Below are positions 4,540 to 38,190 of a stretch of DNA of 49,169 nucleotides, piece after piece (the first letter of the stretch is position 1; each line of letters opens with the position of its first letter). Made by a program: the position numbers and the translations under genes. The DNA lies in contig JAURGP010000010.1 of assembly GCA_030833725.1 (NCBI GenBank), positions 1 to 49,169 of the forward strand, written 5' to 3'. The notes below the pieces were generated by a model. That model ran no database searches. It saw only the letters and a program-made list of their open reading frames with translations, and had not been told where the DNA came from. The DNA comes from Candidatus Kapaibacterium sp. (GTDB lineage Bacteria > Bacteroidota > Ignavibacteria > Kapaibacteriales > Kapaibacteriaceae).

Positions 4540-5499
4540 TTAAATCAGTAAGGTGGAGAGGTCTACAAGGTAACCGGGCACCTTCTTGCGTTGTTCCCAC
4601 GTACGCTCCAAGGGGACCTGAACAACGTCGCCCTTATGCAGGCCGATCATGACGTCGGTGGCGCCTTCCATGAGGGCGTCCACGGCAGCAGCTCCGAGGC
4701 GGGCCGCCAGCACGCGATCGCTTACCGTGGGCGAACCACCCCGTTGAATGTGACCAAGAATCGTCACCTTCGACGACAACCCGTACCGTCCCTCGATCTG
4801 ACGGGACAACTCCAAAGCTCCACCCAGTTCGTCGCCCTCTCCTACAATCACAATCGTCCGTTTGTCCAAGCCCTGCGCCACGATGCGCTGGTACAGCACT
4901 TCAACGTCGGTGAGCGTTTCTGGCAGGGCGATAAACTCGGCACCACAGGCAATACCAACATCCATGGCAATGAAGCCGGCGTGCCTGCCCATGACTTCGA
5001 TGAAGAACAGCCGGCCGTGGGAGTCGGCGGTATCACGAATCTTGTCGATGGCTTCTGCCGCTGTGTTGATGGCGGTGTCATATCCAATCGTGACATCGGT
5101 ACCCCACAGGTCGTTGTCGATCGTTCCGGGTGTACCAACGATGGGAATACGATGCTCTTCCCACAGGGCATGAGCACCGTGGAAGGTACCGTCGCCGCCA
5201 CAGGCTACGATGCCATCAATTCCGTGCTTGCGGAGTTGGTCAGCTGCCTTGCTGCGCCCTTCCACCTCCATGAACTCCGGCGATCGACTGGTTTTGAGAA
5301 TCGTGCCGCCTCGATCCAGAATGTTGGCTGTGCGAATGCGATCGAGAACTTCGAAGTGGCCTGCAATCATTCCGGAGTAGCCCCCGATGATGCCGATCAC
5401 TTCCAGACCGCGCTTGTCGGCCACACGCTCGACCGCTCGAACGTGGGCATTCATGCCTGGGGCATCGCCCCCACTGGTAAACACTGCTATGCGTTTCAT
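4540..5499 (-). CDS. pfkA: ATP-dependent 6-phosphofructokinase
   Basis: Phosphorylates fructose 6-phosphate to fructose 1,6-bisphosphate, the committed glycolytic step. The 319 residues match bacterial PfkA length. Motifs: FTSGGDAPGMNAHVRAV at the N-terminus, the ATP loop GGDGTFHGA, TPGTIDNDLWGTD with the catalytic TIDND, EVMGRHAGFIA, and ILGHIQRGGSPTVSDR. TIDND followed by Gly in the GGDGT loop indicates ATP rather than pyrophosphate as donor. It is the first gene of a five-gene minus-strand run and is divergent from the phosphate porin. A TATTTTCG sequence 6 nt before the ATG is one base off the Bacteroidota -7 box. A GTTACA/GTAACA repeat pair lies 26 bp upstream. Confidence 0.95.
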   Translation of the reverse strand: MKRIAVFTSGGDAPGMNAHVRAVERVADKRGLEVIGIIGGYSGMIAGHFEVLDRIRTANILDRGGTILKTSRSPEFMEVEGRSKAADQLRKHGIDGIVACGGDGTFHGAHALWEEHRIPIVGTPGTIDNDLWGTDVTIGYDTAINTAAEAIDKIRDTADSHGRLFFIEVMGRHAGFIAMDVGIACGAEFIALPETLTDVEVLYQRIVAQGLDKRTIVIVGEGDELGGALELSRQIEGRYGLSSKVTILGHIQRGGSPTVSDRVLAARLGAAAVDALMEGATDVMIGLHKGDVVQVPLERTWEQRKKVPGYLVDLSTLLI

Positions 5500-5524
5500 G
5501 CGCAGCGAAAATAGGGTGTGCCAG

Positions 5525-5542
5525 TGTTACAATCAGGTAACA
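5525..5542. promoter_or_regulatory. Candidate Pho box / operator between pfkA and the porin
   Basis: TGTTAC and GTAACA form a perfect inverted repeat with a 6-bp spacer, and the same bases read as GTTACA and GTAACA direct repeats exactly 11 bp apart, the spacing of PhoB/PhoP half-sites. It lies in the divergent 145-bp region between pfkA and the phosphate porin. The assignment to Pho control is inference from spacing and neighbours. Confidence 0.45.
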
Positions 5543-5591
5543 TTCGCATCACGTGCTGAATCTGTTCGTCCCTCTACAGTAGTTTCGCCCG

Positions 5592-5635
5592 CGGTAATGT
5601 TTCGGTAATGTCGTAACAGTTTGTTTACAGTTTCT
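5592..5635 (+). promoter_or_regulatory. Candidate Pho box: four consecutive 11-bp units before the phosphate porin
   Basis: Units begin at 5592, 5603, 5614 and 5625. The first two both start CGGTAATGT; the third and fourth read TAACAGTTTGT and TTACAGTTTCT. The 11-bp period is that of known PhoB and PhoP sites (one turn of DNA per monomer), and GTAACA/TTTACA within the last two resembles the TTAACA repeats of Gram-positive Pho boxes. The array ends 9 bp before the porin ATG at 5645, so binding there could also affect RNA polymerase placement. Confidence 0.55.
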
Positions 5636-5644
5636 TCACACCCC

Positions 5645-6859
5645 ATGAGAACCCTAGTACTCACCGCCGTAGCCATCGCATGCGTGGCACCCCTGACGTT
5701 GTTCGGACAGGCCTCGACACAGTCCACCGGTAGTTTCGACTTCAGCTCCTCGGGCATCGTGTTTCGAACGGCCGATAGTGCGAATGCCATCATCATGCGC
5801 TTCCGGATGCAGAATTGGCTCACGTATAACACTGTGAGCACCAGTGACTTATCCGCGGCAAGCACCGAACTGGTGGTGCGTCGTCTGCGCCTGCGGTTTG
5901 GTGGTCATGCTTTTGATCCCCGGCTTACCTTTAACCTACAGTTATCGTTTTCTCGGTCTGATCAGGACTACTCTGACACCCAGTTCCCCAATATCGTCCG
6001 GGATGCTATGGTGTTCTGGAACTTCTCACCACGCCTGCAGGTAGGCTTCGGCCAGACAAAGTTGCCTGGTAACCGCCAACGGGTGATTTCGTCCGGCGAC
6101 CAGGAAATCGCCGACCGCTCCATCGTGAACGGTGCCTTCAATCTCGACCGGGACTTCGGACTCCAAGGCTTCTGGCAGCCGATTCACGGACCCGTCATCA
6201 TGAACCTCCGCGCAGCGATCTCTTCGGGCGAGGGACGCAACGCACCAACCATCTCGGGTGGAGGTCTTGCCTACACTGGTCGAGTGGAGATCCTTCCGAT
6301 GGGTGCATTCCTCAATGGTGGCGACTACTTTGATTCCGATCTCATGCGGGAACCAACACCGAAACTCTCAGTTGGCGTGAGTGCCCAGTACAACGAGGAT
6401 ATGAACAAAACGCGCGGAGAAGTCGGAAAGGCCCTGTACGCTCCTCGCACGGCGACGGTCCTGTACGCCGATGCCCTGTTGAAGTATCGCGGCCTGGCCG
6501 TGTATGGTGAGTATGCTCAACGCAGTGCCGACGACCCCATCACCGTCAACCCGTCGAACGCCAACGAGAAGCGCGCCGTATTCGTGGGAAGGGGCTATAT
6601 GGCACAGGCCTCCTACCTCCTGCCCTTCAATCTGCTGATTGGTGGTCGGTACGCTGTAACCGAAGCCGGAGATCAGCTTGCCGGTTTGTCCGACTACGCT
6701 CGAGCCACGAATCTGGCGGGCGTACTCACGTACTACGTGAACGGTCATCGTATCAAGACCAATCTCGAACTTGGCATGCGCACAGCCGAAAATCTGAATG
6801 TGCCAGACTCTGAACAGTCGTCACTGTATGGCCGAGTGAATCTGGAGTTCGGTATCTAG
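5645..6859 (+). CDS. Outer-membrane porin of the phosphate-selective OprO/OprP type
   Basis: Predicted 404-residue outer-membrane beta-barrel channel. The ATG at 5645 gives a clean signal peptide (MRTLVLTAVAIACVAPLTLFGQ); a TTG 24 bp upstream in frame lies within the candidate Pho box and is less likely. Visible family features are the RRLRLRFGGHAFDPRL strand, the alternating hydrophobic strands after it, FGQTKLPGNRQRVISSG, which matches the LPFNRQ segment of OprP-type porins, and a final strand ending in aromatic-poor NLEFGI. It stands directly before pstSCAB-phoU, so phosphate or polyphosphate entry is the natural inference; substrate choice cannot be read from sequence. No convincing Shine-Dalgarno sequence precedes it. 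Confidence 0.8.
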   Translation: MRTLVLTAVAIACVAPLTLFGQASTQSTGSFDFSSSGIVFRTADSANAIIMRFRMQNWLTYNTVSTSDLSAASTELVVRRLRLRFGGHAFDPRLTFNLQLSFSRSDQDYSDTQFPNIVRDAMVFWNFSPRLQVGFGQTKLPGNRQRVISSGDQEIADRSIVNGAFNLDRDFGLQGFWQPIHGPVIMNLRAAISSGEGRNAPTISGGGLAYTGRVEILPMGAFLNGGDYFDSDLMREPTPKLSVGVSAQYNEDMNKTRGEVGKALYAPRTATVLYADALLKYRGLAVYGEYAQRSADDPITVNPSNANEKRAVFVGRGYMAQASYLLPFNLLIGGRYAVTEAGDQLAGLSDYARATNLAGVLTYYVNGHRIKTNLELGMRTAENLNVPDSEQSSLYGRVNLEFGI

Positions 6860-6889
6860 TGTTTCCAACTAGTAACATGAAGCCCTGGG

Positions 6890-6897
6890 TATCTTTG
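6890..6897 (+). promoter_or_regulatory. Candidate -7 box (TATCTTTG) for pstS
   Basis: TATCTTTG matches the Bacteroidota housekeeping -7 consensus TAnnTTTG. It lies 36 nt before the pstS ATG in the 74-bp gap after the porin gene. No clear -33 TTTG was found at the usual distance, so the call rests on the -7 match and position. Confidence 0.4.
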
Positions 6898-6933: not shown

Positions 6934-7761
6934 ATGCGTATCCTCCGAACGTTGTCATTGCTGTTGGCAGTATTTACGGCTGCAGCCCTTGCTGCTCCCA
7001 AGGAGCGTATCACCATCAAGGGATCGGATACCATGGTGATTCTCGTGCAGAAATGGAGCGAGCTGTATCCCGGCAAGAATATCGAGTTTCAGGTGACGGG
7101 AGGAGGCTCAGGTACCGGTATTGCAGCGTTGCTCAATGGCACCACCGACATTTGCTCTTCATCGCGCCCCATCAAGCCGAAAGAGGTGGCCATGCTCCGG
7201 GAAAAGTTCAACTACCGGGGAATGGAAGTGCGCATTGCGCGAGACGGCTTGTCCGTGTACGTCAATGAAAAGAATCCCGTCCGATCTCTCACGCTAGAGC
7301 AGGTTCGCCTGATCTTCACCGGAAAGATTCGGAACTGGAAGGAGGTTGGTGGTCCCAACGCTCCGATCATCCTCTACTCACGCGAAAACAGCTCGGGCAC
7401 GTACGAGTTCTTTAAGGAGCATGTACTGAAAAAGCAGGATTTTGCGCCGCAATCACAGCACATGGCTGGAACCGCGGCACTCATCAACGCTGTGTCGAAG
7501 GACCGTAACAGTATTGGTTTCGGCGGCGCTGCCTACCTAGCTGGAGTGAAGGCGCTCTCGATTGCTGTGGATGCTTCCTCTGCGGCCGTTGCGCCGAGCA
7601 AGGAGACGATTCTGGATGGATCCTATCCAATCTCACGCTTTCTGTATTTCTATCTGAATAAGCGCCCAACTGGCTCCATCAAGAAGTTCATCGACTGGGT
7701 GATTTCACCACAAGGCCAGGCAATCGTGTCCGATGTTGGGTACTACCCGATAACGAAGTAA
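6934..7761 (+). CDS. pstS: Phosphate ABC transporter, periplasmic phosphate-binding protein
   Basis: Periplasmic solute-binding subunit that delivers phosphate to PstCA. 275 residues: signal peptide MRILRTLSLLLAVFTAAALA, then KGSDTM (phosphate-binding loop at the first helix), TGGGSGTGIAALLNGTTDI (second binding loop), ARDGLSVYVN, SRENSSGTYEFF (the Arg/Ser/Gly/Thr phosphate ligands) and GTAALINAVSKD. This is the shorter PstS type rather than the 340-residue E. coli type. It heads pstS-pstC-pstA-pstB-phoU with gaps of 5-41 nt. There is no lipobox, so it is probably soluble in the periplasm. Confidence 0.95.
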   Translation: MRILRTLSLLLAVFTAAALAAPKERITIKGSDTMVILVQKWSELYPGKNIEFQVTGGGSGTGIAALLNGTTDICSSSRPIKPKEVAMLREKFNYRGMEVRIARDGLSVYVNEKNPVRSLTLEQVRLIFTGKIRNWKEVGGPNAPIILYSRENSSGTYEFFKEHVLKKQDFAPQSQHMAGTAALINAVSKDRNSIGFGGAAYLAGVKALSIAVDASSAAVAPSKETILDGSYPISRFLYFYLNKRPTGSIKKFIDWVISPQGQAIVSDVGYYPITK

Positions 7762-7769
7762 GGCAACCC

Positions 7770-8852
7770 GTGCTGCACCCGTTTCAACAACCGCAACGTC
7801 GGCCGCTCGAAACCCTCGCGGAATGGTCGATTCGTGCCGTTGCGTCGGTATCGATCGTTGTGATCTTCCTGATCTTCCTCTTTGTATTTCGAGAGACGTT
7901 GTCGCTGTTTGTGTCAACAGACCATGGTCAGCCGGTAGCGGACGACGTCACTGGCCAGATGGACGACGGTCCGGAGGTGTACAACCCACCACAACTTGAA
8001 GATCTCGACGTACCAGAAGTGTACAATCCAGAAACCGGTGGACTACCGGAGACATCCAGTACTGGGCAGCAGCAGGAACAACCAGACGAACGAACCGTGT
8101 GGGAGAAGCTCTTCCATGATGTATGGCAGCCAGTTGGTGAACAGCCCAAGTTCGGACTCCTGCCGTTGATCATCGGCACAGCTAAGACCACATTCATTGC
8201 CATCCTGATTGGTGCGCCGCTGGGTATTCTGGCCGCACTGTACACAGCCTTCTTTGCGCCGCGTCGGTTGCGCAACGTCATCAAGCCGGCCATCGAACTA
8301 CTGGCAGGTTTTCCTTCGGTGGTGATTGGCTTCTTCTGCCTAGTCACAGTAGCCACGTTTGTGCAGGAGACCTTGGGTGTGGAGTTCCGACTCAATGCTC
8401 TCGTAGGGGGCATTGGTCTGTCCTTGGCCGTGATACCCATTGTATACGCCATTACGGAGGATGCACTCAGTGCAGTTCCGAAATCCTTGCGAGCTGCGTC
8501 CCTAGCGCTCGGCTCCAGTGAGTGGCAAACGGCCTACCGCGTGATGCTTCCGGCTGCAGCTCCGGGAGTGATTGCCGCCGTGATTCTTGGAGTCGGTCGA
8601 GCCTTTGGTGAGACGATGATTGCCATCATGGCCACGGGAAATGCCCCGATGGTTTCCTGGGCGGCAGCCACTCCGGCCCGAACATTTGCCGCCACCATTG
8701 GCTCGGAAATGGGCGAAGTGGTGTGGGGCTCGGAGCACTACGGTGTGCTGTTCCTGCTGGGAACACTGCTGTTTGTGGTGAGTTTCAGCTTGAACGCACT
8801 TACAGAGTTGTATGTGAAGAAACGACTGATCAAACGATTCCAAGGGAAGTAA
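7770..8852 (+). CDS. pstC: Phosphate ABC transporter permease PstC
   Basis: Inner-membrane permease subunit. 360 residues starting at a GTG 8 nt after pstS. One transmembrane helix near residues 22-45 is followed by an unusual polar, acidic and proline-rich segment (about residues 50-115) containing two copies of PEVYNP, and then the usual five-helix transport domain, with the EAA-like loop LRAASLALGSSEWQTAYRVMLPAAAPGV and GRAFGETMI. Many PstC proteins have a shorter first periplasmic loop. The insertion could contact PstS or the cell wall, but that is speculation. The permease core looks intact. Confidence 0.94.
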   Translation: MLHPFQQPQRRPLETLAEWSIRAVASVSIVVIFLIFLFVFRETLSLFVSTDHGQPVADDVTGQMDDGPEVYNPPQLEDLDVPEVYNPETGGLPETSSTGQQQEQPDERTVWEKLFHDVWQPVGEQPKFGLLPLIIGTAKTTFIAILIGAPLGILAALYTAFFAPRRLRNVIKPAIELLAGFPSVVIGFFCLVTVATFVQETLGVEFRLNALVGGIGLSLAVIPIVYAITEDALSAVPKSLRAASLALGSSEWQTAYRVMLPAAAPGVIAAVILGVGRAFGETMIAIMATGNAPMVSWAAATPARTFAATIGSEMGEVVWGSEHYGVLFLLGTLLFVVSFSLNALTELYVKKRLIKRFQGK

Positions 8853-8870
8853 CGCCCGCATCTTCTCACC

Positions 8871-9782
8871 ATGAAGCATACCTTCACACAGGATCTCGGA
8901 ATCTCCAAGCGACTGCTGGGCTTCGTTGCCGTGGCAACTGCTGCCACGGCCGCCGTTGCCGTTCTGGGTATTCTGCTTGGCATGTTTGGTCAGTTCCTGG
9001 CCGAAGGTGGTCCCAGTATCACGTGGGACTTCATCACGGACTTCCCGCGCAATAGCAATACGGAGGGCGGTATCTTTCCCGCTCTGGCAGGCACCACGTT
9101 CCTGGTACTGCTGATGACTCTCATGGGCGTGCCCGTCGGCACGGCTACAGCGATCTACCTTACGGAGTTTGCTCGCCAGGATTCACGTTTTGCGCGCAGC
9201 GTGCGCTTTGCCGTTAACACGCTGGCCGGCGTACCTTCGATCGTATTCGGACTGTTTGGTGTTGGCTTCTTCGTGCAATTCGTTGGTGTGGGCATCGATG
9301 CTGCCACCGGTTCTGTTGCGTTTGGGGACGGCTCGCTGTTGTGGTCGTCGGCAACGTTGGCAGTTCTCACACTACCAGTAGTGATTGTGTCCGTTGAAGA
9401 AGCTCTTCGCGCCGTTCCACGTGAGTTGCGTGAGGCCTCCCTAGCACTGGGTGCCACACGTTGGCAGACCATCACCAAGGTTGTGGTTCCGAATGCGACG
9501 TCGGGTATCCTCACCGGTTCGATTCTTGCAGTTGGACGCGGAGCTGGAGAGGTGGCAGCCATTCTCTTCGTGGGCGTTACCTACTCTTCCGAAGTGTTGC
9601 CCTCGGCCGTTACCGACAAGTTCATGCACCTAGGTTACCACCTGTACGTGCTTGCCACGCAATCACCAGATGTTGAGGCTACGATGCCTCTGCAGTATGC
9701 CACCACAATCGTTCTGCTCGCCTTGACGTTTCTCCTGAATTTTACGGCCATCTTCGTTCGGTCACGACTGAGCACGAGATAG
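8871..9782 (+). CDS. pstA: Phosphate ABC transporter permease PstA
   Basis: Second membrane subunit of the phosphate importer, 303 residues with about six transmembrane helices. Recognised from the N-terminal helix [15 protein letters not shown], the [21 protein letters not shown] loop typical of Pst[16 protein letters not shown], and the cytoplasmic EAA motif [28 protein letters not shown], followed by [13 protein letters not shown]. It follows pstC by 18 nt. Its last codons run into TAGCCCCTTAC, a weaker version of the repeated window word. Nothing in the transport domain appears missing. Confidence 0.95.
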
Positions 9783-9823
9783 CCCCTTACGAGATCTACG
9801 AGAACTGCGAGGACTACCCCTCT

Positions 9824-10591
9824 ATGGCAAAGGAATACCCAACGAAAATCAGTGCGCGAGACTTCTCCGTATTCTACGGACCGAAGCAGGCGCTGTTCGA
9901 CATTTCACTTCAGATTCCGCAGAACCGGGTGACAGCTTTTATTGGTCCGTCGGGCTGTGGCAAGTCCACCTTCCTGCGATCGATCAACCGGATGAATGAC
10001 CTGATCGACGGTGCTACCGGACAGGGTGCGCTCACCGTGGATGGCATCGATGTGTACGACAAGAGCGTGAATGTATCGGTGTTGCGACGAAAGATTGGCA
10101 TGGTGTTCCAGAAGTCGATTCCGTTTCCGAAATCGATCTACGAGAACATCACGTACGGTCTGACCCTTCTGGAGAAGGTGTCCCGCTCTGAACTCGACCA
10201 TATCGTAGAGCAGAGTCTCCGACGAGCAGCATTGTGGGACGAGGTAAAGGACCGACTGCACCACTCGGCCATGGGTCTATCCGGCGGTCAGCAGCAACGT
10301 TTGTGTATTGCGCGCGCTGTTGCTGTGAACCCTGAGATTCTGCTCATGGACGAACCGTGCTCTGCATTGGACCCAATTTCTACGGGAAAGGTCGAGGAGC
10401 TCATCACCGAACTCAAAGACACCTACACGATCGTACTCGTAACGCACAATATGCAGCAGGCCGCCCGCGTTAGCGACTACACTGGCTTCTTCCTAATGGG
10501 AAGGCTGATCGAGTTTGATCGCACGCGAACGTTGTTCACAAGTCCGGCAAAGAAAGAAACTGAAGACTACATCACGGGCCGATTCGGCTAA
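9824..10591 (+). CDS. pstB: Phosphate ABC transporter ATP-binding protein
   Basis: ATPase subunit that powers phosphate import; 255 residues, the usual PstB length. Motifs: [19 protein letters not shown], Walker [10 protein letters not shown], the Q-loop region [20 protein letters not shown] (the P-F-P-K-S-I-Y run is characteristic of PstB), signature LSGGQQQR, Walker [14 protein letters not shown] and the switch His in [22 protein letters not shown]. It starts 41 nt after pstA and ends 5 nt before phoU. All catalytic residues are present. Confidence 0.97.
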
Positions 10592-10596
10592 CACGT

Positions 10597-11343
10597 ATGA
10601 ACAAATCCTTTGAAGAGAATCTCGACAAGCTGCGTACCCGCATCATTCGCATGGGCAGCCTGGTAGAGGAACAAGTCGAGTTTGCCATCCGTGCACTGCG
10701 TGATGGCAATGCCGAGTTGGCGCGCATCGTGATCGAGCGCGACGACAAAGTGGACAAACTGGACTTGAAGATCGACAAGCAATGTCAACGCATCTTCGCC
10801 TTGAATCAGCCCGTTGCGTCAGATCTCCGTTTACTTCTGACAGCGATAAAGATCAACAACGAGCTGGAGCGTATCGGCGATATGGCCGCAAGTATTGCCC
10901 ACACGGTGATCAATCGTCCGGAGACAGTTTCCTTGTCCCAATTGGCCGGTGTGGAACGATTGGCCTCGGCCGTCCATACACTGCTCAAGGCGAGCATTGA
11001 TGCCTTCATCAACAACGACCCTGATCTTGCCACACACCTATTGCCGGTAGATTCTTCCATCGACTCGCTGTCCACGGAAACGCAGAGCCGTCTGGCTGCA
11101 CTGATGCAGGAAGATGTAAGCCGCGTTCCAGCTGGTGCCCTGCTATTGATTGCCATCCATAACCTGTCCCGCATTGCCGACCATGCCACGAACATCGCTG
11201 AAAACGTGATCTTCCTCGTGGAAGCGAAACTGGTGCGACATCAAAACGTGGGTGGCGACCCCATGACCATTCGCGACGTGCTCGACGAATCGGATGACGC
11301 ATCGGACGACACGGCTGATGACGCTGCCGACGGCTCTTCGTAG
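10597..11343 (+). CDS. phoU: Phosphate signalling protein PhoU
   Basis: Cytoplasmic helical regulator that links PstSCAB to the PhoR kinase and limits phosphate uptake. 248 residues: two PhoU three-helix repeats, the first with MNKSFEENLDKLRTRIIRMGSLVEEQ and DLRLLLTAIKINNELERIGDMA (metal-binding E-x-x-x-D), the second with HNLSRIADHATNIAENVIF. After about residue 230 there is an extra acidic tail made of Asp/Ala/Ser (DESDDASDDTADDAADGSS), not usual in the family and encoded by near-repeated GATGAC/GACGAC triplet pairs. The gene is the fifth of the pst run and precedes rfbA by 8 nt. Confidence 0.94.
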   Translation: MNKSFEENLDKLRTRIIRMGSLVEEQVEFAIRALRDGNAELARIVIERDDKVDKLDLKIDKQCQRIFALNQPVASDLRLLLTAIKINNELERIGDMAASIAHTVINRPETVSLSQLAGVERLASAVHTLLKASIDAFINNDPDLATHLLPVDSSIDSLSTETQSRLAALMQEDVSRVPAGALLLIAIHNLSRIADHATNIAENVIFLVEAKLVRHQNVGGDPMTIRDVLDESDDASDDTADDAADGSS

Positions 11344-36269: not shown

Positions 36270-37346
36270 TTACTCCCCCTTCATCCCCTTCAACTCGAAA
36301 GAAATCTTCGTGCCAATGTTGGGTTGACTCTCTACCGTGAGGGTCGCGTTGTGTGCCTCGAGGATGTGCTTCACGATCGCAAGGCCAAGGCCGGTGCCTC
36401 CTACGGCGCGGGAGCGGTCCTTGTCCACGCGGTAGAAGCGTTCGAAGATGCGGTTGATGGAGTCGGCGGGAATTCCTACGCCTGTGTCTTCTACGGAGAT
36501 GCGCACACGGTCGTTGAGCGCAGACCCGTGTACGGTGACAGTTCCCCCATCGCGGTTGTACTTGATGGCATTGTCAATCAGGTTTGTCATCACCTGAATC
36601 AGACGCTCTTTGTCTCCAAACACCGTAAGTGTTGTGCCGGCTGGTACATCTAGGACTACGGACACATTGCGCTGGGTTCCTCGAATCTCCATGGTGTGCA
36701 CAAGATCGTGCAGGAGATCCGCCATGTCGAAGTATCGAAAGGACATGCGCAGTTCGCCACTCTCGATGCGAGAGATGTCGATGAGATCACTGAGGAGCGC
36801 GTTCAAACGAAGGGCGTTTTGATAGGCCTTTTCGAGAAACTGTCGGCTGACCGATGGATCGTCCAGCGCACCGTCAATCAGAGTTTCGAGGTATCCCTGC
36901 ACGGAGAAGATCGGTGTGCGAAGCTCATGCGATACGTTGCCGACAAACTCGCTGCGGACGCGCTCGAGGCGTTTCATTTCGGCGATGTCTCTGGTAGCCT
37001 TTTCGGCCAGCGTATTGATGGCCGTGGCAACATCGGCAATCTCTGACGTGGCCAGTGCAGGCACGTCGATCTCTGACTGCTGAGCCCCCTGCACGATGGC
37101 TCGTGTAGCCTCCTGGATGCGCTGTAGCGGCTCGACCACATGGGTTCGCACGATCCTCTGGACGCTGAGATACATCATGGTACCGCCCAAGACCATCACC
37201 GTAATCAGCAGCGTTACGGTGAGGGGCGAGATCGCACTCATGGAATCCGTGACGATCAGCACTGCAGATACTCCGAGTGCCATGATGATCGTGCTTGCAG
37301 CGATACTGCGGGACAGTACGTGCGATGCCGTTCTGCGAGGTGACAT
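36270..37346 (-). CDS. phoR: Sensor histidine kinase, PhoR-like
   Basis: 358 residues: two transmembrane helices (about 15-35 and 40-60) with almost no periplasmic loop, HAMP (about 61-115), phospho-acceptor His 140 in NVSHELRTPIFSVQGYLETL, then the ATPase with N box LTNLIDNAIKYNRDGG, G1 DTGVGIPADSINRIFERFYRVDKDRS and G2 GGTGLGLAIVKHI. The FERFYRVDKDRSR sequence and lack of a sensor domain fit PhoR of the phosphate system, which senses PstSCAB-PhoU rather than a ligand. It follows the regulator gene by 9 nt. The name is inferred from architecture and the pst-phoU genes 25 kb away, not proven. Confidence 0.8.
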   Translation of the reverse strand: MSPRRTASHVLSRSIAASTIIMALGVSAVLIVTDSMSAISPLTVTLLITVMVLGGTMMYLSVQRIVRTHVVEPLQRIQEATRAIVQGAQQSEIDVPALATSEIADVATAINTLAEKATRDIAEMKRLERVRSEFVGNVSHELRTPIFSVQGYLETLIDGALDDPSVSRQFLEKAYQNALRLNALLSDLIDISRIESGELRMSFRYFDMADLLHDLVHTMEIRGTQRNVSVVLDVPAGTTLTVFGDKERLIQVMTNLIDNAIKYNRDGGTVTVHGSALNDRVRISVEDTGVGIPADSINRIFERFYRVDKDRSRAVGGTGLGLAIVKHILEAHNATLTVESQPNIGTKISFELKGMKGE

Positions 37347-37355
37347 GCCTCCAAG

Positions 37356-38066
37356 TTAGGAGACTTGTTCGCGAAAACGATACCCGACGCCCTTGACGGT
37401 TTCAATCCACGAGGAGTAGTCGCCGAGTTTCTCGCGAATCTTCGAGACGTGTACGTCCACGGTTCGGTCGATGACGTAGACACTCTCTCCCCAAATGCGA
37501 CGCAGGAGCGACTCTCGCGTGAAGACCTTTCCACTATTAGCGGCAAGGAAAGCCAGCAGTTCGAACTCCTTCTTGGGAAAGAAGATTTCCTTTCCCTCGA
37601 TCTTGACCGTATAGTTCTGGCGGTTGATCTCCAGAACACCTACGCGCAGTACCTCGGGAACGGCAATCGTTTCGGTCCGGACCGTCTCACCACCACGGCG
37701 CAGAATCGTCTTGACTCGCGCAATCAGCACGCGAGGACTGATGGGCTTTTGAATGTAGTCGTCGGCACCCAGTTCCAAGCCGAGGATCTGATCGATCTCA
37801 CCGGACTTTGCTGTGAGGAACATGATCGCGGAGGTGGATGTCGCAGCATTCTGTCGGAGCGATCGACATACCTCAAAGCCATCCATGCCAGGCATCATAA
37901 TGTCCAGGATGACCAGATCGGGCAGGTGCTCGAGCGCACGCTGCACTGCCTCTGTTCCGTTACTCGCCGTGACGACCGTATAGCCTTCTTTGCTCAGGTT
38001 GTAGGAGATGAGATCTACAATGTCCTGTTCGTCGTCTACAACAAGTATCTTCTTTTCCAGTGCCAT
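37356..38066 (-). CDS. phoB: Response regulator, PhoB/OmpR type
   Basis: 236 residues: receiver domain with acidic pair D11-D12, phospho-acceptor D55 in LVILDIMMPGMDGFEV, FLTAKSGEIDQILGLELGADDYIQKP with the conserved Lys, and a winged-helix DNA-binding domain (about 135-233) ending SSWIETVKGVGYRFRE. This is the PhoB/OmpR class. It is transcribed before the kinase gene. A perfect palindrome CCTCTATAGAGG (38077-38088) sits 10 bp before the ATG, and TAAC/TTAC repeats 11 bp apart lie further upstream, so it may control itself. Its TAA stop is part of TAACTTGG, which stands 4 nt before the kinase ATG. Confidence 0.85.
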   Translation of the reverse strand: MALEKKILVVDDEQDIVDLISYNLSKEGYTVVTASNGTEAVQRALEHLPDLVILDIMMPGMDGFEVCRSLRQNAATSTSAIMFLTAKSGEIDQILGLELGADDYIQKPISPRVLIARVKTILRRGGETVRTETIAVPEVLRVGVLEINRQNYTVKIEGKEIFFPKKEFELLAFLAANSGKVFTRESLLRRIWGESVYVIDRTVDVHVSKIREKLGDYSSWIETVKGVGYRFREQVS

Positions 38067-38088: not shown

Positions 38089-38125
38089 TGGAGGTAGTTC
38101 CCAAAACTATGGCCGGGGTGGCATC

Positions 38126-38152
38126 ACATTACCGTAAAATACTCGTTACATT
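38126..38152 (-). promoter_or_regulatory. Candidate Pho box between phoB and the divergent T9SS protein
   Basis: On the minus strand the sequence contains TGTAACGAGTA followed by TTTTACGGTAATG, with TAAC and TTAC exactly 11 bp apart, and it includes CGGTAATGT, the same 9-mer that opens the first two units of the porin Pho box. It lies in the 124-bp divergent region and could serve both genes. Confidence 0.45.
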
Positions 38153-38190
38153 GGCTCTGCGAAGCCGCTTCAGACGTTGTATTTTACTGC

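Follow-up and report, generated by a model that had tools for sequence, protein, structure and literature searches.

In Bacillus subtilis, PhoP recognizes TTAACA-like units; some of its sites are in transcribed DNA or in reverse orientation, and sites are found inside the phoA and pstS coding regions. Phosphorylated PhoP can also repress, as described for tagAB in the accessible part of PMC6232261, which provides a precedent for negative action by a Pho regulator. Pho boxes are built from at least two 11-nt units, the sequence of which differs from one species to another, and E. coli PhoB uses such 11-nt units before pst, porin and regulator genes, much as at the locus described here (PMC4415409, accessible part). 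The accessible text of PMC1906773 places the E. coli Pho box 10 bp upstream of the -10 element and describes the cyanobacterial SphR box (CTTAACCT, 8+3 bp), which resembles our sites in its TTAAC-type units and 11-bp period. A search of titles and abstract openings, with most subscription journals outside its reach, returned no Pho box in Bacteroidota or Kapabacteria and no PhoB site downstream of a start; as far as this search reached, the lineage consensus, the spacing rule and the downstream array reported below are undescribed.

We studied a porin promoter in a 49,169-base stretch of DNA (the window; features in Table 1). The Pho-type unit of its lineage, TGTTACnnAAT / GTAAC, differs from the CTGTCAT of E. 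coli and is closer to the cyanobacterial box (PMC1906773, accessible text), the second half of the motif learned from phoB promoters being TTTAACC here. Also unlike in E. coli, the pair is nearly palindromic, stands 38-40 nt before a TAnnTTYG box and is joined, downstream of the porin -7 box, by an extra inverted array. The SphR box belongs to another phylum and has three tandem upstream units where two are seen here, and no downstream array is described for cyanobacteria in the accessible text of PMC1906773. From the PhoP sites of B. subtilis the locus differs in promoter type and unit, and in having, within a single porin promoter, both a site in activator position and a downstream array at a set distance from each other. 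Our main reading, to which we assign a probability of roughly 45%, is that this promoter carries two sites for the same regulator: an activating Pho box (site A) and a downstream array that would damp transcription.

Table 1. Features of the porin and regulator loci, in coordinates of the window.
Feature	Position	Strand	Description
pfkA, divergent	4540-5499	-	PF00365 E 1.5e-98; -7-like box TATTTTCG at 5506-5513, minus strand
Site A	5524-5545	-	Near-palindromic candidate Pho box GTTAC-N6-GTAAC, core 5526-5541; predicted at about -68 to -47
Porin -7 box	5580-5587	+	TAGTTTCG, Bacteroidetes-type TAnnTTTG one base off; conserved block
Units 1-2	5592-5613	-	Minus strand CATTACCGAAA-CATTACCG; strong Pho-type site, rank 3 of 98,296, 19.8 bits
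Array C	5613-5640	-	Units 3-4 with a third, weaker unit; a triple 11-bp array following the -7 box, conserved
Porin_O_P outer-membrane porin	5645-6859	+	PF07396 E 1.5e-8
Pho-type site before pstS	6857-6878	+	Rank 4, 12.05 bits; -7 box TATCTTTG at 6890-6897
pstS, pstC, pstA, pstB, phoU	6934-11343	+	Pfam and NCBIfam
PhoR/PnpS-like sensor kinase	36270-37346	-	Adjoins regulator; HAMP, HisKA, HATPase_c
PhoB-like OmpR-family response regulator	37356-38066	-	PF00072, PF00486; best NCBIfam model PhoB NF053854
Regulator's own Pho-type site	38132-38153	-	Rank 2, 20.0 bits, window excluded from training

The gene names given in the original prediction for the region downstream of the repeats (a phosphate porin, pstSCAB and phoU) were right, the products being Porin_O_P, PstS, PstC, PstA, PstB and PhoU. 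The porin occurs in 54 of 123 genomes of the order, including all 23 of the family to which the window belongs (f1), and those relatives among 16 GTDB loci that bear a name belong for the most part to Candidatus Kapaibacterium or Ignavibacteria assemblies, while a few carry other labels. A regulator pair of the PhoB/PhoR type is encoded at 36270-38066. Because the regulator stays below the curated equivalog cut-offs for PhoB (251.1 of 270 bits for NF053854, 231.2 of 296.2 bits for TIGR02154), we call it PhoB-like; the kinase reaches 301.3 bits with the PnpS model, below its cut-off of 400.

Four 11-bp units can be read directly before the porin (CGGTAATGTTT at 5592, CGGTAATGTCG at 5603, TAACAGTTTGT at 5614 and TTACAGTTTCT at 5625), and the porin ATG at 5645 lies ten bases past position 5635. 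The near-identical pairs that had been noted here are real, with 9 of 11 bases shared by units 1/2 and likewise by units 3/4, while units 2/3 share only 3 of 11. The TAA/TTA cores stand at 5595 and 5606 in one pair and at 5614 and 5625 in the other; the spacing is 11 bp inside each pair and 8 bp from one pair to the next, and this phase shift of 3 bp means that we are looking at two tandem pairs, not at a single four-unit array. Two consecutive 11-bp pairs of at least 9/11 identity occur at this one place in the window, against an expectation of 0.0 per window in 200 first-order Markov simulations. A weaker fifth unit, TCACA at 5636, keeps the phase of units 3-4 and coincides with the conserved third unit of relatives. 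What had been proposed as one four-unit Pho box is therefore better described as two pairs: units 1-2 have no counterpart in the other 19 of the 20 aligned f1 promoters and look like an insertion private to the window's genome among them, and units 3-4 belong to a conserved array. The tandem 11-bp organization of a Pho box is found in units 1/2 and 3/4, and in relatives array C consists of three units in direct repeat. Searched in the window's genome, the exact pattern of units 3-4 matched once, at the site itself, so that in this form it does not recur across the genome. A functionless repeat made by chance or slippage would fit the presence of units 1-2 in this genome only; the simulated expectation, the conservation of the array in relatives and the match to an independently learned motif make such an origin highly improbable.

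This motif was learned from 37 phoB upstream regions of seven families of the order, with no porin promoter and no window DNA among them, which avoids circularity in scoring porin sites. The underlying 38 phoB upstreams comprise 20 from the 23 f1 genomes (19 plus the window; G012, G014 and G015 are missing) and 18 usable starts from outside f1, where 20 of 40 genomes with a match were taken (L172 and L173 dropped out); one training row, L171, has no site. The motif is 22 bp long (~ATGTTACCrAATTTTAACC), and the top four of the 98,296 positions scanned in the window are site A (23.7 bits on the minus strand, 11.6 bits on the plus strand), the window's phoB promoter, units 1-2 on the minus strand and the pstS promoter, with the next unrelated site at 6.8 bits. 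In 40 simulated windows the best score was at most 19.2 bits (median 11.7), so that none reached 19.7 bits; of 100 column-permuted matrices, 1 reached that value. Scores of at least 12 bits are expected 0.4-0.7 times per window; the score before pstS is not significant alone and draws its support from the orthologues, since a site stands before pstS in 17 of 21 f1 loci, the window included (the starts of L006, L015 and L021 are misassigned and scored as misses, although L006 does have one once its stretch is placed manually). The Pho box assignment holds up in that the repeats match a motif derived independently from phoB promoters and also present before pstS, and in that the regulator has an orthologue in 23 of 23 f1 genomes. 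On these grounds, the repeats are very probably binding sites for the PhoB-like regulator.

The first TAnnTTYG after the motif follows at 38-40 nt in 25 of 38 phoB promoters, where shuffled tails give an expectation of 0.04. In 30 of 38 the spacing deviates by no more than about 1 nt from 39, 49.5 or 60, which would correspond to whole helical turns as for an activator that needs to face the polymerase. At the regulator's own promoter in the window, the site lies 40 nt before TAGTTTTG (38102-38109). The lineage Pho consensus can be written as approximately WTGTTACSnAATnGTAAC, a testable proposal for a mostly uncultured order, and its placement, 38-40 nt ahead of TAnnTTYG or farther away by whole helical turns, is a rule that can be used to predict phosphate genes in that order.

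Bacteroidetes-type sigma-A -7 boxes are present in these promoters as TAnnTTYG, with the porin box of the window one base off. In Flavobacterium psychrophilum, the corresponding TAnnTTTG box lies at -12 to -5 (PMC9723704, accessible part), and transferring this position to the window puts the porin start at about 5592 and the repeats from about +1 onward. We are confident, short of certainty, that the porin -7 box marks the transcription start site in this way. A site upstream of it exceeds the 95% null in 19 of 22 f1 porin promoters, 16 times on the plus and three times on the minus strand, the latter all in the window's genus (these counts cover 22 of the 23 genomes, as the upstream region of G017, locus L009, consists of N). 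Its distance to the porin -7 box is exactly 39 nt in 14 of the 22, 49 nt in one and 53-54 nt in four, all of the window's genus (54 nt in the window), while A is absent in three. For G012 the -7 position was set at -73 (better -100), which affects the split into upstream and downstream sites and leaves the site scores unchanged; for G009 it was -49 in the site count (better -45), and the spacing and identity figures use the better values for both. A model built from 50 f1 sites without window DNA (R3) finds its best match across the whole genome of the window at site A (E 0.0067). It is site A, upstream of the -7 box, that occupies the activator position, and not units 1-4; this Pho box at 5524-5545 is absent from the original prediction.

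Since the porin shares its intergenic region with pfkA throughout f1, adjacency cannot separate the two genes as owner of these sites, and no more than 12 nt separate site A from the pfkA box in the window. The sites might accordingly serve divergent pfkA, or another regulator of the same protein family. The distance of A to the pfkA -7-like box nevertheless ranges from 12 to 92 nt in the 16 promoters where both were found, whereas its spacing to the porin box is fixed, and the same motif precedes phoB and pstS, so that we consider this explanation improbable. The fixed spacing to one box and variable spacing to the other make A most simply the Pho box of the porin, and ownership by pfkA is disfavoured for the same reason. 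Judged from sequence and spacing, site A is likely the activating Pho box of the porin promoter and probably the switch. A separate observation is that pfkA and the porin are divergent neighbours throughout f1, so that a glycolytic gene and a phosphate uptake gene stay together more stably than expected.

The original prediction had instead taken the repeats themselves for the activating box, which would place the start site further downstream. They match the phoB motif and are the repeats nearest to the porin gene, but they lie 12 nt or more downstream of the TA of the -7 box, and they are inverted relative to the gene, as the array is in 16 of 16 promoters. The array moreover ends 4-10 nt before the ATG, which leaves no room for a -7 box, and it is preceded by the conserved TAnnTTYG, whose distance from A is fixed. 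Activation from the repeats in this manner is therefore distinctly improbable.

Across 20 aligned f1 promoters, three blocks are conserved: A (~CAATGTTACcGAAaGGTAAC), the TAnnTTYGC box and C (~ GTAACAnTTnn-CTAACAATTTC-ATAACA), the last a run of three 11-bp direct repeats not far from the start codon. For 14 promoters of standard layout, one per genome, comparison in pairs gave an identity of 0.79 for the -7 box, 0.69 for C (after realignment on the first unit) and 0.74 for A, a figure favoured by the choice of these promoters for having A at the standard place; identity is 0.32 in the spacer and 0.26 and 0.33 in the outer flanks, 0.33 being the value of the leader after C. C starts 12-14 nt after the TA of the -7 box in these 14 promoters, or at about +1 if TA is at -12. 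A site downstream of the -7 box exceeds the 95% null in 16 of 22 f1 porin promoters, always on the minus strand, so that the lack of conservation at orthologous porins on which the original prediction would have failed is not observed. The downstream site is oriented opposite to A in 13 of the 16; the others include the window, with A on the minus strand, and G014, which has no A, and A is on the plus strand in G009 to G010 and the rest. The phoB matrix gives array C only 6.2 and 4.0 bits, and units 3-4 (6.2 bits, rank 10) score near the best unrelated site of the window scan. Model R1 matches the window with E 4.0e-4, but the window is among its 14 sequences. All matches of a C model with E <0.09 fall within the porin promoter, and some of them are site A read on its opposite strand. 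The downstream array was seen at the porin gene alone, and no downstream partner of A-type sites was recognised at the phoB and pstS promoters of f1.

The two-site layout is not obligatory and is labile in some lineages, as a downstream site without A (G014), A without a downstream site (G012 and G015), a weak downstream remnant of 2.5 bits (G016) and the lack of both sites at the porin (G011 and G013) indicate. Outside f1, 21 porin promoters were tested, and a convincing site was found in G030 (family f4) only (p 0.003). Candidate 11-bp TTAAC repeats at family f6 porins did not hold up, all 10 of the f6 promoters that were tested giving p 0.29-0.94, and G110 (p 0.007) and G111 (p 0.003) of family f9 are not counted because the matched stretch overlaps the -7 box.

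Under our two-site reading, the phosphorylated regulator would bind A upstream of the -7 box and recruit polymerase, as it would be expected to do at pstS and at the promoter of its own gene. The repeats, which run in inverted orientation from about +1 to +49, would be bound by this regulator too, and once occupied, covering the start site and the first transcribed bases, would hinder initiation or promoter escape. Porin expression would then be capped once the regulator is abundant; an inverted array over the start combined with a regulator gene that has its own site predicts induction followed by a cap. If the array is such a brake, one regulator would both induce and cap an abundant outer-membrane pore. 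Leader RNA structure gives no competing explanation: none was found, the leader being less stable than all 200 shuffles, and so unusually unstructured an RNA argues against an RNA device.

The downstream array could alternatively be an accessory activating site, where bound regulator would help A by bending the promoter or by loading it, in the manner of the PhoP sites within the phoA and pstS coding regions of B. subtilis. Its fixed place at 12-14 nt from the -7 box and its retention in G014, where A is gone, are consistent with this idea; it would nonetheless cover the start site, is oriented opposite to A in most promoters that have it and has no recognised counterpart at f1 phoB and pstS. 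Against the two-site reading, in turn, the window departs from most relatives in that its site A is 54 nt away from the -7 box and has its higher score on the minus strand. Given this placement and the labile layout, and with only the geometry of the array pointing to a negative role, we put the chance that it lowers transcription at slightly less than even, and we regard accessory activation as rather unlikely. More tentative than the negative role itself is its full form, in which an activating box at a fixed helical position upstream of the -7 element and an inverted three-unit operator starting at about +1 would bracket the promoter and, in a porin-specific arrangement conserved in Kapabacteria, let rising PhoB-phosphate first switch the porin on and then throttle it.

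Beyond the porin, the motif is common to the phoB and pstS promoters and to TonB-dependent receptors in the window's genome (G000) and in G015, and the regulon search with R3 yielded, besides such receptors, a protein that recurs and matches no Pfam family. The second-best R3 match in G000 (contig 26, E 0.5) stands before a TonB-dependent receptor (L133 1723-1744; ~8222-8243), scores 19.7 bits with the phoB matrix and is part of an 11-bp-spaced GTAAC/ATAAC array; the first pass of this search covered 150 of the 185 candidates in G000, so that weaker sites could have been overlooked. Another TonB-dependent receptor, in G015 (L220), is preceded by a double site. R3 hits inside genes, such as L221, look like chance.

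Several further observations concern other promoters of the order. The pstS upstreams of L010, L014, L016 and L004 have a likely -7 box TAAATTGC or TAATTTGC, one base shorter than TAnnTTTG, which resembles the SM5 motif TAnnTTGY of F. psychrophilum (PMC9723704, accessible part). A Pho-type site precedes a related-looking exported protein in three genomes of two genera (L204 1502-1523, L195 1501-1522 and L208 1502-1523); this protein has 383 aa in L204 and L195 and is partial in L208, the L204 and L208 copies are without Pfam match, and an acyl-CoA dehydrogenase gene lies on the other side of the site in L204 and L195. In L038, L047, L051, L042 and L039, finally, GTTAC-N6-GTAAC stands at a fixed distance before TAnnTTCG, ahead of the same small gene.
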